Shown: positions 51,996-63,812 of the stretch, in pieces
How the letters are laid out: each line of letters starts with the position of its first letter
How positions within the stretch are numbered: position 1 is the first letter of the stretch
DNA from: Candidatus Synoicihabitans palmerolidicus
GTDB lineage: Bacteria > Verrucomicrobiota > Verrucomicrobiia > Opitutales > Opitutaceae
Length of the DNA stretch: 64,000 bases
Direction of reading: 5' to 3'
Assembly: GCA_020809425.1 (NCBI GenBank)
Contig: JAGGDC010000002.1
Span: 62,001 to 126,000 of the forward strand
The notes under the pieces: model-generated
What the model saw: the letters and a program-made list of their open reading frames with translations, nothing else
The model's database searches: none
What the model was told of the DNA's origin: nothing
Program-made: the position numbers and the translations under genes

Positions 51996-52854
51996 GCGAA
52001 CCACACATGCGTGCCGCCACCTCCGATGACCTTCCTTTCCTCAAGGAAGTCTACATCGACGCGGGCGAATCCATGGGGCCCGAATCCTACACTCCCAACC
52101 AGGTCAAGGCCTGGGCCCACTGGCCCAACGCCGAACCTGCCGTATTCCGGCAGCGCGTCACCGCCGGCCACACCTGGGTCGTGGAGATGGAAGGCGAAAT
52201 CATCGCTTTCGCTGAGTTTACCCCTCCCGATCATTTGGATTTTCTCTACACCCGTAGCGCCCACTGCCGCTGTGGTTTCGCCACCATGCTTCACCAACGC
52301 CTTGAGGCCATCGCTCGCGATCTGGGGGCGCCTTGGCTGCGCACCGAAGCCAGCTACATCAGCCGTCCTGTCTGCAACCAATTTGGTTACCGCGTCACCG
52401 AAATTGAGCGCGTCGAGCGCTGGGGTGAAACCTTCACGCGCTTCAAAATGATCAAACGACTGAAGCTGGGGCCACCCGCCACCGGTCCGGCTCTTCCGGT
52501 CAACGAAGAATACGAGGCATCTTTTCCCGTCACCCCCATCGCGGCGGCCGAGGAAATCGTCAATTTTCGCCAATATGATGAAAAAATTCCGGGTGGTTCA
52601 GCGGCAACGACGCCCGCGGAGTGCCCGGATACTTTCCTGCCGAGTGGTTTATCGTCGATGAGCGCAATCACCGCGCCATTGCTCAACGCGATTACGCAGC
52701 CGTCGAACTTACCGTCTCCGTCGGCGACATTGTCCATGTGGTGCATTCCGTAAAAGGCTGGCATTGGGTAGTTACCGCTGACGGACGCCGGGAAGGCTGG
52801 ATTCCCCGGAAATGCTTGCCCCAAACCATTGATGGCCATTGGGCCCCGGTTTAA
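51992..52854 (+). pseudogene. GNAT acetyltransferase fused to an SH3-like domain, frameshifted
   Basis: The first 160 residues form a GNAT domain (MRAATSDDLPFLKEVYIDAG, WVVEMEGEIIAFAEFTPPD, HCRCGFATMLHQRLEAIA). A linker leads to VNFRQYDEKIPG, where one base is missing near 52593. In the next frame an SH3-like domain follows (GYFPAEWFIVDERNHRAIAQ, VSVGDIVHVVHSVKGWHWVV, GRREGWIPRKCLPQ) to a TAA at 52854. Restoring one base gives a single protein of about 285 aa. The GNAT part could still fold. The combination is unusual. Confidence 0.75.
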
Positions 52855-52867
52855 GCCTTTCCTTTCA

Positions 52868-54790
52868 ATCGGGTAGGCGGAGGTATCTAGCCTCCGCCCC
52901 CCACACCACCCGGCATGCGAGTCCGCACCGGGCGGTTCCGAACGTTATCGGACCGTAGTGGGATAGTGGATATGCGCCCACCGAGCGGTGAGCGAAGGCA
53001 GTCCTTCTACTGTTAACCAGTCGTTATGGAGCGCTTGATTAAGCGCCGGGGATTGGGACATGGCCCAGCATCCCGAACCGGACAGGCCGTTCAAGATCGC
53101 GTCCCGCTTGCGCACGCCGAGGCGCAGCAGCTGGCGGATACGATTGCGTCGAGTCTTCCACATCTTCCCATAACAACATCGCAGTCGTCGCCGGATCCAG
53201 GGTTCGAGATGGCGCACCGTGCCGTAGGTCTGACTGATGCCGAAGTAACCGATCCACCCACGCAGGTAGTGCGCGAGCTGTCTGATTCGTTCCTTCATCG
53301 CCACGCCCCAGTTGCGGCTGGTCAACTCGCGGATCCGATGCTCAAACCGTTGGAGTGATCGCTCACTCCAAACGATGCGCGAGCCTTTGAAGGCGAACCC
53401 GAGGAAGGTAAGCGCGTTCGTTTTGACGACCGCACTCTTGGTCTCGTTCACCTTCACCTTGAGCATCCGTTCCAGGAACCGGCGCACGCTGGCCATGACC
53501 CGCTCACCCACCCGGGGGCTCTTCACCAAGATGGTAAAGTCGTCCGCGTAGCGAGCGAAGTGGTGGTCGCGTCGCTCCAGCTCCTTGTCCAGATCGTCGA
53601 GGACGACATTGGCCAACAACGGTGACAGAGGACCGCCTTGGGGCACTCCCTGCGTCGTGCGTTGGAGACGTCCGTCGACCTCGACTCCGGCCCGCAGGTA
53701 GTGCCCGATCAAATGCAGGACGCGTTTGTCCGTCACCTTGCGAGCCAGCCTCACCATCAGCACATCGTGGTTCACCGCATCGAAAAACTTCGACAAGTCG
53801 AGGTCCACCGCGATGCGGCGGCCCGACTTGATTCCGTCTGCGACATGGCGCACCGCGTCATGTGCGCTGCTATGAGGCCGGAAGCCATAACTATGATCGC
53901 TAAATCCCGGATCAAAAATCGGTCCGAGTTGTTGGGCGATCGCCTGCTGGATCAGCCGATCCAGCACCGTCGGGATGCCGAGCAAGCGCACCCCGCCGTC
54001 AGGTTTGGCCAGTTCCACCCGCCGCACCGGCGCGGGCACATACGTGCCTGCGAGCAGCGCCTCGCGCAGTCCCGGCCACAACGCGCGGATGCGTTCCGGA
54101 AACGCATCGATGGTGATCCCATCGACACCCGGGGCTCCGCGGTTGGCCTTCACCTGCTTCCACGCCGCGGACACGTTGTTCGTGCCCAGGATCGCTTCAA
54201 GCAGGTAGTTTTCTTCATATCCTGCGTCCGGTGGTTCCGCTTCACACCGCGACTCCGCAACGCCGGTCGGCGTTTGCGCGGATCGCGAGCAGGCGGGGCC
54301 GGACGCATGCGTTCGGTTCGGGCCTTCGTCGGGGTGAGACCTCCGGTTCATTCGACGGACGGGTGACCCGTCGGCGCCTACTCCCAGCTCGTTTCCACGG
54401 CGACTACTATGCCCTCTGCTGACTCCTGCGCGTGCGCCGCCAGCGTTGCCGCCGCCGGTGCTGTCCGTTTGAGCGGACCGCTTCACGTGCAGGTCTCCCC
54501 GGATATGAGCATCAACTTCCCTCGCGCAAACGCATCATTTACCCTATGTCCTGAACCAGAGGGCTTCGCCATGTGGAAGTGGATCGCCCCGAACACTAAG
54601 CCTTGTATGACGTTCTTGTTCATCGTCTCGCGAGTTTGCCTACGGCTTCTTTCAGACCCATCCTCACGGCTACGCCCTTGCCCTCGGCTAGTGCTTTTCA
54701 TGTTCTGTTGTCCTTTCGGATTTTCTTCTCATTTTGGTTCCATGCATAGAGGACTCAAACCTCATCAGTTGATGCCCATGCCGAGCATAC
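52868..54790 (-). mobile_element. Group II intron (about 1.92 kb)
   Basis: On the minus strand the RNA starts near 54790 with GTATGCTCGGCATGGGC, a slightly atypical GUAUG instead of GUGYG. It contains domain I-like words (GGTCTGAAAGAAGCCGTAGG at about 54655), the reverse-transcriptase frame in domain IV, a domain V hairpin (CCGCCCGGTGCGGAC and GCATGCCGGGTGG, 52904-52938), a domain VI hairpin (52877-52899) and a 3' end CCTACCCGAT at 52868. The 5' exon side continues into a histidine kinase gene on the other strand, while the 3' exon side is the end of the GNAT-SH3 gene. It seems complete and potentially active. Confidence 0.8.
52945..54351 (-). CDS. ltrA: Group II intron reverse transcriptase/maturase
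   Basis: The 468-aa protein has all RT blocks: AAWKQVKANRGAPGVDGITI (RT0/1), RVELAKPDGGVRLLGIPTVL, VDLDLSKFFDAVNHDVLMVR, GVPQGGPLSPLLANVVLDDL, and the catalytic RYADDFTILV. The maturase domain X follows (LRGWIGYFGISQTYGTV). There is no C-terminal HNH endonuclease, as in many bacterial class C or similar introns. The frame is open further upstream, but ATG at 54351 begins the product shortly before the conserved part. It is intact, one of the few undamaged mobile-element genes here. Confidence 0.93.
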   Translation of the reverse strand: MNRRSHPDEGPNRTHASGPACSRSAQTPTGVAESRCEAEPPDAGYEENYLLEAILGTNNVSAAWKQVKANRGAPGVDGITIDAFPERIRALWPGLREALLAGTYVPAPVRRVELAKPDGGVRLLGIPTVLDRLIQQAIAQQLGPIFDPGFSDHSYGFRPHSSAHDAVRHVADGIKSGRRIAVDLDLSKFFDAVNHDVLMVRLARKVTDKRVLHLIGHYLRAGVEVDGRLQRTTQGVPQGGPLSPLLANVVLDDLDKELERRDHHFARYADDFTILVKSPRVGERVMASVRRFLERMLKVKVNETKSAVVKTNALTFLGFAFKGSRIVWSERSLQRFEHRIRELTSRNWGVAMKERIRQLAHYLRGWIGYFGISQTYGTVRHLEPWIRRRLRCCYGKMWKTRRNRIRQLLRLGVRKRDAILNGLSGSGCWAMSQSPALNQALHNDWLTVEGLPSLTARWAHIHYPTTVR

Positions 54791-56558
54791 TCCATCTCGC
54801 CGGCGATCGCGATGGCATTGCCGCCGCGACCATCATCCGGGACGAACTCGACCTGCCTGTCATTTTCCTCACCGCCCACAGCGACCAAGCCACCCTCGAT
54901 CGAGCCAAACGCACGAGCCCCTACGGCTACCTCGTCAAATCCTTCGACGATCAAGAGCTGCGCGCCACCATCGAAACCGCCGTCTACCGACACCAATCGA
55001 ATACCCAGCTTCGCCGCATGGAACGATGGCTTCGCACCACCCTCCATAGCATCGGCGACGGTGTCATCACCGTGGACCTCGAACGCAAGATCACGTTCAT
55101 CAACCCGGTCGCCGAACAAATCACGGGCTGGACTCGCCAGGCCGCCATCGGCCGCCACGTCTTCGTCCTGCGCGACAACGACAATCACCGCATCGAAGAC
55201 CCCATCGGCCCCGTTATCGACGACGGTGAGATGCTGCGGTTCGACGAACACTACCAGATCGATACCAAGGACGGTAACCGTCGCCGGATCGACGACACCG
55301 TTGCCCCGATTCGCAATACGACGGGGGAGCTCGACGGCGGCATCATCATCTTCCGCGACGCCACCTCCGCCACCTCCAAGTGGGAACTCGAACAACAACG
55401 CCTCAAAAACGAAAAACGCATGCAGGAGGCTCAACGCCTTGAGAGCCTGGGAGTCCTCGCGTCTGGAGTCGCTCATGACTTCAACAACCTGCTCGCCATC
55501 ATGATGGGGCATTCCGAACTGATTCGCGAGAGCCCCAATCTCTCCGACGCCGAACGACAATCAATCGACAGCATTCGCGACGCCGCACGCCGCGCCACTC
55601 ACCTTTGTGAACAACTCGTGGGTTACTCCGAAGACGACAATTTCGACCGCTCTTCCGTCGATCTGCACGGTGTTCTTGAACAATGCGTCCACGTCCTTTC
55701 TCCCCGCCTACCCGATCATTTTAAGGTCAAATTTGATGTCTCTTCCGAGCTCGGGCACGTCCATGGCCACTTCGGTCGCCTTCAACAACTGTTCGGCAAT
55801 CTGATCAACAACGGCGTCGAGGCCATGGTCGATGAACCCGGCTCCCTTGATATCTCCGCTTCCGTGGTCGACGCGCTTCCGGCGCATCCCCGGATCACTC
55901 CCGCCAAGGAAACCCCACCAGGTCAACAGTGGCTGCTGGTTGCGATCGAGGACGAGGGGGTCGGCATCCCCGAATCCGCCCTGGAGCGGATCTTCGATCC
56001 TTTCTTCAGCACCAAATTCATTGGTCGCGGCCTCGGTCTTTCCATCGTCTTCAACATCGTGCGCGCCCACGAAGGTGCGCTCAACTTGCGCACCTCCGCC
56101 GAGGTGGACACACGCTTCGAGATCTTCCTGCCGCTTACCCAAAAGCCGGTCGCCCCCCCAAACCCGCCTTCCCCTCCGCAGAGTGGTGTCCGGCCAAAAC
56201 CGGGCACGCCCTCATCGTGGACGACTAGCCGTCCGTGCGCAACGTGCTCACTCGATTCCTGGAACGTAGCAATTGTACCACTACAGACTGCGAGGACCCG
56301 GTCGCGGCCCTCACCGTCGTCACGTCCCGCGAGGACCTGGCGGTCGTTTTCCTCGACCTTACCATGCCCAAAATCACCGGCGTCGATCTCCGCGATCGCA
56401 TCCGACTCTCACATCGGAAGCTGCCTATTGTGTTCATCAGCGGTTTCCCGGAGGACACGGTCCGCACGATCCTTGAGGCCGACGAAAACACCTACTTCCT
56501 TCAGAAGCCGTTCTCCCGCGACGAGTTCAACGCCGTGCTCGCAGCCTTCACCTCTTGA
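54791..56558 (+). pseudogene. Hybrid histidine kinase lacking its N-terminus (REC-PAS-HisKA-HATPase-REC)
   Basis: Coding starts directly at the intron boundary inside a receiver domain: HLAGDRDGIAAATIIRDEL and FLTAHSDQATLDRAKRTSPY are its second half; the first half with the phospho-Asp is gone. A PAS domain (ITVDLERKITFINPVAEQIT), a HisKA domain (LASGVAHDFNNLLAIMMGHS), an ATPase domain (IEDEGVGIPESALERIFDPF) and a C-terminal receiver (VVFLDLTMPKITGVDLRDRI) follow. A frameshift near 56150 and a TAG at about 56227 in place of the acidic residue after ALIVDD separate the last receiver. The upstream frame through the antisense of the intron is fortuitous. Confidence 0.85.
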
Positions 56559-56964: not shown

Positions 56965-59098
56965 CTAGGTCAACTCACAGGCTCCGCCCGCGCAGGCAAA
57001 TCACCTGCTTGAGCTCCGTGATGTCCTAATCCTCACAAAGCTCCGTGTATTGTACATCTTGATACGACAACCCGTTCCATCGTTCAATATCGGCCGCCGT
57101 CATCACCGCTTCCCGCTGGGCCTGAGCATAGGCTTTGTCCCCACAAGCCTGTAGCAACGCGATACCGGTGAAGGAATCCCGGTAGCGCCAGATCGCGTCG
57201 GCGACCGCCGCCCACTCGTCCGGCCTCACCGTCACCGTGCAGGACACATTGTGATGAAGTCCCTTAGAGTGATTCTCGTGCCGTCGCCCCGGTTGCACCC
57301 AGTTGAGCTGCACATGCCGAATATAATCCAAATGCGTCAACGCATCCAAGTCCTCCCGATAGATGCCAAATTCCGGCCCCTGCACCGGAAACGTGATCAC
57401 CTCTGTGCGACCGTGCGGATCATAAACACTCTCCTCCACCATGTAAGGATTCCGCCGTTTGAAATGCTGAAATACCGGACACAGCGTATTCGACTGGACG
57501 CGCCTGAAATGCCGCACCGCATGATGAGGGTGCACTCCACTCGAGGTCCCTAATAACAGACTCGCCGTACCTTCCGGCTTTACGCAGGTCGTTCGAGCCG
57601 CCGGCTGGAGTCCAATCGCCCGCGCCACGACCAAATTCACCACCTTAACCACCGCGGCGCCGGTCCGCAACACTTGCGCATCCAACAACACATCCAGCCG
57701 GTCCAGCACTCCACAAATCGACACCCCCAACAAAGCTTCGCGTTCCGTTATCACCCGAGACACCGCGGCCAGAGACGTGAAATCCGTAGACCCCGCCTGC
57801 AATGTTCCAATCAGCGCCGCTTGGGCGCACAACTCATAAAAACGAGCCGGGCTTTCCACCGCCGCCGCCAATAACGTCGTTAAGTTACAGAACTGCACGC
57901 CTGACAAAGTTTCGCCTTCGTGCAACCCCCCCCTTGTATCCCAGTTTGCGCAACCGCCCCGTCGTCTCCTTCGTGATCGGCAGCTTCGGATTGAGTCCAA
58001 TCTCCACGCAGGGATTCGCGCCATGATCGGCGTCTTCCACAAAATAAAACCCCGGCTCACCAAACTGCTTCTGGGCCTCAAATAACCGATCAAACTGCGG
58101 TCGCGACACTTCCGCCCGGACCATCACCGCCGAGTTGTTACTCGCCGATCGCTGCGGCTGCGTTTCAAACCAATTTCCCGTCTTTGCCGCACACATTTCC
58201 TCATCGTCCGCCGAGAACAAACAGATTGTTGCCGAACGGCGAATCCCCCCCGACAACACCGCCTTCGCCCCCCACATCAAACAGTCGTAGGCCTCAATGG
58301 GTCGCAGCTGACGGCCTGCGGCTCCATAAAGCACCGGCGGCCTCCACCTTCTTCAAAGCGTGCATCAACGGCTCCGGTCCCGGCGCCTTTCCGCCCGAGG
58401 TCCGCAAGGGCGCCCCCGCCGGTCGAATATCCGAGTAATCAAAACTCACCCGCCGCCCCTCAATCGCCGACATCACTAACTCGTGCAACGCATCCGCCCA
58501 GCCTTCAATCGTATCGCCCACGACCCACCGTGTCGCATCTACGTCCACAGCCGGACGCTCGGCCAACACCGGTAGCTTTCCCACATGCTGTCGCTGCACC
58601 GAAAAACCGACACCACAGCCACACAGAAGCAGGTAGAGACTCTCTCGCAACGACTCCACTCGAGCAATGTGCATGAACGCACAATTATAGATCCGAGTGT
58701 GCTTCTTCAAAATCGCTTCTCCGCCAAATTGAAGACTGCGCATCGACGGTAATACCCGCTTCGCCTCCACCGCCGCAAACGCATCCCGGATGGCGCCATG
58801 CAACGACCCGAGCGGCCCCAGCTTCGCAATTAAACTTGGCTCCACCTCACCCGAACTCAACGCCTCAACCGCGACCTCCAGCAACGACGTTTCGCGATAG
58901 CGACCCAAGTGCATGTCTCGCACCCGCACCACGGCCTCCGGCCAGGTCTCCCGCCGTCGCTTTTTCTCGTAATAACGCGCATACCGGGACACCGCGATGT
59001 AGTCCTGCAATCCGTTCAAATCATGACGCATCGGAAGTGGCGAGGAGCCTGAAGACACGAGGGATGAGGACACGATCGCAGACGAATCAAGTTTCATG
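56965..59098 (-). pseudogene. nrdJ: Adenosylcobalamin-dependent (class II) ribonucleotide reductase, decayed
   Basis: This is a monomeric-type class II reductase that makes deoxynucleotides using B12. From ATG 59098 (GGAG upstream) the frame runs through VLPSMRSLQFGGEAILKK, YLLLCGCGVGFSVQRQ and VSFDYSDIRPAGAPLRTSGG, then shifts near 58310. The next frame has VLSGGIRRSATICLFSADDE and the active-site segment NPCVEIGLNPK, and shifts near 57930 at a C-run. The third frame holds FCNLTTLLAAAVESPARFY and TTCVKPEGTASLLLGTSSGV up to a TAG at 57026. Past that stop a further frame encodes the C-terminal redox motif CAGGAC, ending at 56965. At least four lesions. Confidence 0.88.
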
Positions 59099-59138
59099 AA
59101 GGGATGCTCCAGCGCAGGGTACGTTTGAGTCGACACGA

Positions 59139-62065: not shown

Positions 62066-62587
62066 ACGCAGGAAACCGCTTGCCTAGAGGGCCAGCCCCG
62101 TGGGTCAAACGGGAAAGCCACCGCATTCTGGAGCCATTCCCCTAAATGCCTGCAAACTAACCGTTAAAAAGCTATGAGCACCACACCTTAGCTGACTTCG
62201 CCTCCCCTCACCTCGGACGCCTCAAGCTTCAAACTTTGCTCCCAACCTCGCCGTTTGCCCCCACGGACCGCTATTCCGGTGGCCAACTCCAACCCGCTCG
62301 CCACCACATCTCTTGGCCTCGCCACAACTTCGTCACTATTTTCGGCGACCTCCGCACGTGTATTCTCCCCTCCTAGCACAATGCTTTTGATTAGAATTAG
62401 GCTCTTAAATGGTCTGGGTATGAAATATTTCGAACTTGGCAGACTCCTTGCAGTCGTAGAAGGTCATACTATGAAACACTTCTTCCGATCTTTTTGGCTT
62501 ACTGTCCGGTGCGTATGCTCCGAGTCGGTCGCCCGCGAAGTGCTCTTCGGGGACGATCACCCCGCGCGACGCCATACTCACGCCGCC
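62066..62587. other. Unassigned spacer between miaB and ISAs1 copy B
   Basis: A 63-codon minus-strand frame (62188-62379) has no recognised family and no supporting context. From about 62380 the sequence becomes noticeably more AT-rich (TTTTGATTAGAATTAGG) before meeting the truncated ISAs1 copy at 62588. The change in composition suggests an old junction of foreign DNA. Confidence 0.3.
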
Positions 62588-63812
62588 AAGGCGTCGCCGG
62601 TGTGACGATCTGCTCGTCCAACGACGCGGCGGCCAACACCTCACCGGCGCGGGCCTGTTCACTGCACGGGGTGTTTTCCTTTTGATCGACGATGGCCAGG
62701 GCGACCGGCGCGCCGGTGTCGGCCTCGACCAGGCTGAGCACCCCGACCGCGTCGCGGATAAACTTTCCGTCCAGGGCGAGCGCTCCGGGCAGGGCACCGA
62801 CGTGGACTGTGAGCCAGCGGTTGAGGGCCTGGGCAAAGGCCTCCGGATCGAGCCGGGTGAGCACGTCATAAAACACGCTGTAACAGGGGGCCAGGCGGAC
62901 CTTTTTGCCGGCCTCACGGGGCAGGGCCAGGGCGAAGCGCTGGTCTTGGTCGAGCAGGTTGGCCATACGAGCGATCGACGCGATGTCGCGCCGGCCGGCC
63001 AGCAGCGCGAGCGCCACGAGGCCAAGAACCGGACCGATCTTGAAGCGGGTGTTTTTGGCGCGCGGATCGGGCACGCCGCACAGGGCCTCCAACAGAGAGG
63101 GCAACTGGCCGTTTTTGAGCGGCAGGGTGCCGGCGCGCGCGCGGCGCAGTCCCGCCCGGCAGTCCTCGGGCAAAGCGGGGTCGGGGGCGCTCAGCAGGGC
63201 CTTGGCCGAGGGGTGCAGGGGCCGCAGCAGCCACAGGTGCTATGGGTTTGCCGTGCTCGCGGTAAAAGTCGTCTCGGTGCCGTTCGTAACCCTGGCTGGT
63301 CCCGACCGGCTCCCACGCGGAGGCCTTGTAGCACGTGCCTTGGTAGGCCTCCGGGTCGGTGAAGGTCTCGGCTAGCAGCGGCCGATAGCCGAAGCGTTCC
63401 TGCCAATGGCCCGGCAACGTGCGCACCGCCGCCGCGAGCACCTGGGAGGCGAAATTGGGCTCCTCGCCGCGCTTGGTGAGCAGTAGAAAGCGGCGGTTTT
63501 GCACCACCAGGGAAAGCCGCTCGACCCGGCGGGTCGCATCCCAGCCCACCCACCGGTCCCGGTCCTTGAGCGCGTAGCAGGCCGGACCCCACGCCAGCAG
63601 CGCCACACCGCCCGCCCCCCTCTTTCGACAATCTGGCGCAGGTAAGCGCCCACCGGATGCCCGGATCCCAAGTAGTGCCGCTCGTGCAGCTGCGCGTCGA
63701 ACCACTCCTGCTCGGCCGCCGTGGCCATGCGCACCTCCACGTTTCGATCCCAGTGCTTCTGCTCCGGGGTTGCGTTCGTCGCTTCCCTTTCCGTTTCACC
63801 TTTAGATTTCAT
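62588..63812 (-). pseudogene. ISAs1-family transposase with DUF4338 (DruA-like) domain, copy B
   Basis: The start at 63812 gives MKSKGETEREATNATPEQKH followed by a normal TGG (TGA in copy A). The DUF4338 part then breaks at the same extra TG after GGRAV, continues VGWDATRRVERLSLVVQN and AETFTDPEAYQGTCYKAS in phase (copy A has an extra A here), breaks at the same extra T after the EHGKP codons, and the transposase part (LLEALCGVPDPRAKN, LDGKFIRDAVGVLSLVEAD) breaks at the same extra AC and then ends at the truncation point. Confidence 0.85.

Follow-up and report, generated by a model that had tools for sequence, protein, structure and literature searches.

The window, a 64,000-nucleotide stretch of the Candidatus Synoicihabitans palmerolidicus assembly (10 contigs, 4,399,668 bases), contains a group II intron that separates the end of an acetyltransferase gene from the C-terminal part of a hybrid sensor kinase gene. 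Positions given without a contig name refer to the window, and the locus contains the following features:

52868–54790, minus strand: ORF-bearing group II intron of family F (Rfam and comparison of copies)
54790 and 52868, minus strand: 5' intron end GTATG and 3' intron end CCCGAT, respectively (alignment of copies)
52945–54486, minus strand: reverse transcriptase/maturase ORF of 513 aa, start codon tentative (Pfam, NCBIfam)
52868–52937, minus strand: intron domains V–VI, with the F-type D6 loop CTAGATA (RF00029, alignment of copies)
54508–54673, minus strand: intron domain I–IV region (Rfam RF02001, 116.1 bits)
51998–52854, plus strand: acetyltransferase gene with a C-terminal extension, read in two frames, 3'-exon flank (Pfam Acetyltransf_1 on 51998–52573)
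54791–56202, plus strand: C-terminal part of a hybrid sensor kinase (half receiver, PAS, HisKA, HATPase), 5'-exon flank (Pfam, orthologues)
56203–56558, plus strand: C-terminal receiver of the same hybrid kinase, out of frame, with an in-frame TAG near 56227 (three-frame translation against G003 and G001)

The element is a real bacterial group II intron. Its domain V/VI is recognized by the full RF00029 model (46.0 bits, gathering threshold 40; Rfam), and pieces of domains I to IV match RF02001 and RF01998 (116.1 and 42.4 bits, respectively). The ORF combines a reverse transcriptase domain (PF00078, RVT_1) with the GIIM maturase domain (PF08388) in Pfam, and scores 388.6 bits against TIGR04416 of NCBIfam, for which the cut-off is 300. 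Among solved structures, the encoded protein is closest to the GsI-IIC reverse transcriptase (E 5.5e-140), followed by another group II reverse transcriptase (E 7.5e-98), and 79 loci in other organisms match it in a scan of named genomes. The intron ends were placed by comparison of the copies in the genome, which begin with GTATGC and finish with CCCGAT or nearly so, a T being the first base of nearly all the 3' flanks. The span of 52855–54800 proposed in an earlier note, made from the sequence alone, is correct to within about 13 bases.

The right flank opens midway through a receiver domain whose first half is missing, as the earlier note had described, and only positions 54–110 of the 111 of the Pfam Response_reg profile are present. 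Among the 57 genomes searched, clear orthologues of the kinase are found only in G003 (60%) and G001 (50%), both of the same genus and both full length, and the identity of the window sequence to these full-length kinases begins exactly at the intron edge. At the joint, the G003 kinase reads ...DLIMMDIHLAGSEDG and the G001 kinase ...DLIMMDIHLRGNDDG, both containing DLIMMDIHL, and the first bases of the kinase exon in the window are the last two bases of the I codon. The left flank is the end of an unrelated gene, also as described in the earlier note, and 13 bases separate the stop codon of this acetyltransferase (52852–52854) from the intron; that side lacks the first half of the receiver, unlike the outcome of a simple insertion. 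No truncated kinase lacking the intron was found in a relative among the 57 genomes. Being antisense to the kinase, the intron could not be removed by splicing to restore the gene, which was broken by the insertion.

Other observations concern the DNA to the right of the intron. The C-terminal receiver of the kinase is defective at 56190–56230, through either decay after the split or a consensus error. At 57026–59136 there is a gene, which we take to be ribonucleotide-reductase-like, that is read in several frames, while its counterpart in G003 (L066) is an ORF of 713 aa. Fragments of transposase-like reading frames were recognized by eye on the minus strand at 62400–63812.

The missing half of the kinase is found on contig C1 (C1:1876464–1876632), where it meets the 3' end of an ORF-less intron copy with no base in between. 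A search beside other copies of the intron had been suggested beforehand, and the half lies on the predicted side. It is an ORF of 56 residues that ends ...DLVMMD plus one base, immediately followed by the 3' end of the intron. When the two halves are rejoined, the sequence ATG GAC ATC CAT CTC GCC encodes MDIHLA, and the joint between MMD and IHLAG is restored with no base lost or gained; in the translated comparison, the matches to the two flanks are separated by a gap of 2 bases in G003 and 4 in G001. The histidine kinase gene found upstream of the orthologue in G003 and G001 is also present, at about C1:1872190–1876458, interrupted by stops. Such exact edges, together with the presence of the missing piece at another copy, are far beyond chance.

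If the locus is taken alone, a headless kinase would also be explained by an insertion accompanied by a deletion, in which the intron entered the kinase and the receiver half was lost together with the stretch to its left, up to the acetyltransferase gene. This alternative had been put forward in the earlier note, and it fails because the supposedly deleted half survives next to the intron copy on C1, with its upstream neighbour, which rules out a deletion beside the intron. The carbonic anhydrase gene, the acetyltransferase's own neighbour, is likewise found elsewhere at an intron copy, and the acetyltransferase and kinase genes are 0.6–0.8 Mb apart in relatives (about 0.6 Mb in G001 and about 0.8 Mb in G003). 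The explanation by deletion retains practically no probability.

The introns of this genome belong to two families. Family F comprises four full-length copies, the window copy among them, which are 96–98% identical. Family S comprises seven copies that lack the ORF, measure about 0.7 kb, are complete or almost complete, and are about 96–97% alike; intron fragments occur besides the F and S copies. Between the families, identity is about 78% in domains I–IV and 91–95% over the last 100 bases. Among the 57 genomes, full-length S introns of high identity were found in this assembly alone, G003 having one S-related copy (78%) at another location. The presence of near-identical F copies at four different places indicates past mobility only, and the ORF-less S introns probably spread using protein made in trans, given that there are more of them than of F copies, at about 97% identity.

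Both ends are present in nine copies, a count that leaves out the truncated L028, L029, L031, L032, and L033. Five of the nine (L021, L022, L023, L025, and L026) resemble plain insertions, and the other four are rearranged. The flanks of each of the five rejoin into an open frame, with a separate frameshift before the joint in L023. In the comparison with homologues, from which the L021 piece was left out, homologues in relatives run across the joint of L023, L025, and L026, and the search with L022 gave none clearly spanning it.

The flanks of the rearranged copies were traced in relatives. The acetyltransferase gene is followed there by a carbonic anhydrase gene, which in this genome is on C4, on the 5' side of an S copy (C4:167735–168433). 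On its 3' side, this copy meets the end of a small basic protein gene (named by eye), whose stop codon is cut between TA and A. Behind the small basic protein gene, a terminator-like hairpin is followed in 6/6 relative loci by another gene, which we take to be of the DUF368 type and which is visible in G003 only in the translated comparison. The hairpin and the DUF368-type gene of this genome (the latter 75% identical to that of G001) are on the 5' side of another S copy, the second on C1 (C1:1489321–1491360). At the 3' side of this second C1 copy there is a small gene cut in frame, here called P, and the free 5' flank of the C1 copy that carries the N-terminal half of the kinase (the kinase-N copy) is called X.

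The present pairs are thus acetyltransferase with kinase C, kinase N with X, small basic protein with carbonic anhydrase, and P with the terminator and DUF368-type gene. All eight flanks (8/8) were placed at intron copies, with the lost partners on opposite intron ends. The breakpoints are exactly at the intron ends, nothing is lost there, and the four copies have intact ends directly at both flanks. This arrangement is a closed cycle of four, which implies at least three pairwise intron–intron exchanges. The suggestion of the earlier note that intron copies had recombined is therefore supported by the missing half at another copy, with the amendment that four copies are involved and not two. 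A cycle of three, in which the partner of the small basic protein gene would be the region to the right of the kinase-N copy, was discarded, as relatives show next to the small basic protein gene the terminator and DUF368-type gene, which in this genome are at the fourth copy. A linkage between the small basic protein and agmatine deiminase was not found in any of the six relatives searched, where the two genes lie on different contigs or at a distance above 0.4 Mb.

As a control, 3 kb of each flank of the four copies, out of the nine complete ones, were combined into 16 left × right pairs and compared with 12 relative loci, a subset of those fetched, located around the kinase (2), the acetyltransferase (4), and the small basic protein (6). 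A pair was scored if both matches were in one locus, in order and within 3 kb. Three ancestral pairs were recovered, each in all the loci fetched for it: acetyltransferase with carbonic anhydrase in 4/4 loci, kinase N with kinase C in 2/2, and small basic protein with the DUF368-type gene in 6/6. Relatives keep these three linkages without an intron there. The 13 other flank pairs, including the four present in this genome today, were found in none of the 12 relative loci; P with X went unscored, because P has no match in them.

When P and X are rejoined, the frame stays open for 13 codons past the joint before a stop codon is reached. Among 387 genomes searched, two others match P, and the better match, in G010, is a homologue that aligns over residues 1–125 of 127, across the joint, with a tail after the joint that is only loosely alike. 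The upstream edge of P and X have in common the motif TCTGAnCTCAAnCGTTnGGCAT, which, we assume, resembles the end of an integron attC site. Because P (L030 9100–9521) and X (L024 10324–10500) carry motifs like integron cassette edges, an intron seems to have entered a cassette array here. The open frame, the loosely matching tail, and the cassette-like edges suggest that P and X, for which there is no syntenic relative, were an original pair. Three of the four original pairings are shown by the relatives, and the fourth is suggested by the open frame.

The main rival explanation is a chimeric assembly, in which the assembly passed from one intron copy into another, either in the software or during manual finishing, and the flank swaps would not exist in the organism. 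A closed permutation of flanks at repeats is indeed the pattern expected from misjoins, and the assembly was edited by hand, according to the part of its description available to us (PMC8636102). However, that source also gives 21,591 mapped PacBio CCS reads at 58.38-fold depth for 10 contigs, 4.3 Mb, and 58.7% G+C, which implies about 11.6 kb per read, compared with 0.7–1.9 kb for the introns. Reads of about 11.6 kb could cross any of these introns, so the published figures argue against misjoins. In addition, the window copy is only about 78% identical to the other three copies, of family S, over most of the shared length, which makes it a poor misjoin site, the pairings are intact at 5/9 complete copies, and no second kinase part in another arrangement is present among the matches listed in the assembly. 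An assembly chimera is thus made improbable by the published long-read depth, and we consider it unlikely by a wide margin. In the assembly, the G+C content was 58.7% over 14 loci, completeness was 69.82% here versus 96.04% in the accessible part of PMC8636102, and near-identical polyketide synthase arrays are found on several contigs. Its authors suspected many pseudogenes, and the word "intron" is absent from its main text in the form at hand.

Insertion sequences are abundant in the genome, and those nested in or beside the introns, instead of homology between introns, could have made the rearrangement. Domain VI of the kinase-N copy holds an IS630-like element, and one half of a LuxR-type gene seems to lie on C5 and the other on C3, parted by an IS30-like element that sits within an S intron. 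Nevertheless, there is no insertion sequence between intron and flank at any of the four copies, whose ends are intact, and the element inside the fourth copy (C1:1489321–1491360) sits between 8-base repeats of intron sequence, as in a plain insertion. The participation of insertion sequences as the cause is highly improbable, hardly more credible than the deletion discussed above.

The split of the LuxR-type regulator (named by eye) is apparent from two loci, L029 (C5:259608–260232) and L033 (C3:50073–50155), each half carrying part of one S intron that is cut at position 76–81 by the IS30-like element. It is likely the product of an IS-mediated exchange, and an exchange mediated by IS30 is likely present in the same genome. 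A clean repair from the C5 and C3 halves was tried and rejected, as the joined frame is one base off.

The window thus very probably spans one of several junctions created when dispersed group II intron copies recombined and rearranged the chromosome in a balanced way. The cause would be homologous recombination in living cells, and the following order of exchanges is proposed. An intron would have inserted antisense into the receiver domain of the hybrid kinase, and further introns into the gap between acetyltransferase and carbonic anhydrase, the end of the small basic protein gene, and the apparent integron cassette. At least three later pairwise exchanges between copies would have permuted the flanks into the closed cycle of four. 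Recombination of the F copies at the kinase and acetyltransferase sites would yield the window junction, that of the S copies at the P and small basic protein sites would yield the second C1 copy, and a third exchange, F with S, would yield the kinase-N copy and the C4 copy.

The types of intron ends fit this history of F and S exchanges. The window copy is F throughout, and the kinase-N copy has an S body with an apparently F-like domain VI. This domain seems F-like because the IS630-like element sits at the position of CTAG in the F loop, and the S loop of D6 has no CTAG; CTAG is also found at the ends of the other copies of the element. The IS630-like element is nested in domain VI of the ORF-less kinase-N intron (L024 8434–9640, C1:1876633–1877839). 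A single reciprocal crossover between F and S was rejected, since it does not yield both the C1 and the C4 products, so that an additional step, conversion or gap repair, is required. Both the kinase-N and the C4 copies would result from gap repair accompanied by crossover, and other orders of events are possible. A more far-reaching version, in which the two diverged families still shuffle their flanks today without loss, the kinase-N and C4 copies come from an F/S break and gap repair with crossover, and the order may vary between cells or host individuals, is doubtful, less so than a chimeric assembly. If it were true, gene order at the intron sites would be polymorphic in the symbiont population.

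The breakpoint at the intron explains the headless, decaying sensor kinase gene. In most cases, recombination between group II introns is deduced from a flank that is missing or out of place; in this case the full set of ends reassembles, and a single genome shows how many exchanges were needed at minimum, that nothing was lost, and that two families were mixed. The junctions are exact and testable, and offer a way to study the reshaping of an animal-associated bacterial genome by mobile introns.

The introns may be related to group IIC (class C, to which GsI-IIC belongs): the protein is closest to the GsI-IIC reverse transcriptase among solved structures, and a hairpin, a terminator, or a cassette-like edge precedes some of the insertion sites. 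They differ from that group in the GTATG start, in the location of most copies within coding sequence, and in the 5' exon, where a strong hairpin (z ≤ −1.3; mononucleotide shuffles, 50 bases) is present at only 5/10 intron sites and absent at the other 5/10. Inversions and translocations mediated by insertion sequences occur in host-restricted bacteria. The rearrangement described here shares with them the shuffling mediated by repeats, with the difference that the repeat is a group II intron. For the ectopic recombination of group II introns, the Wolbachia study referred to in the literature is reportedly that of Leclercq et al. 2011. According to the portions available of two papers, ectopic homologous recombination applies also to group II introns (PMC3522654, citing a Wolbachia study), and recombination between intron copies possibly led to a deletion in Sinorhizobium (PMC5894124); the kind of event is therefore already known. 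No closed permutation of flanks in a bacterium was recognized in the open literature, judged by titles and the beginnings of abstracts. As far as those portions describe them, the cases of PMC3522654 and PMC5894124 are similar to ours in that dispersed, near-identical introns serve as repeats for rearrangement in a host-associated bacterium rich in mobile elements. Unlike them, where instability and deletion are described, here eight flanks were located, they form a cycle of four without loss, and ORF-bearing and ORF-less families take part. What stands out is that the ring is complete and without loss and that it combines two intron families, an unusually complete case.
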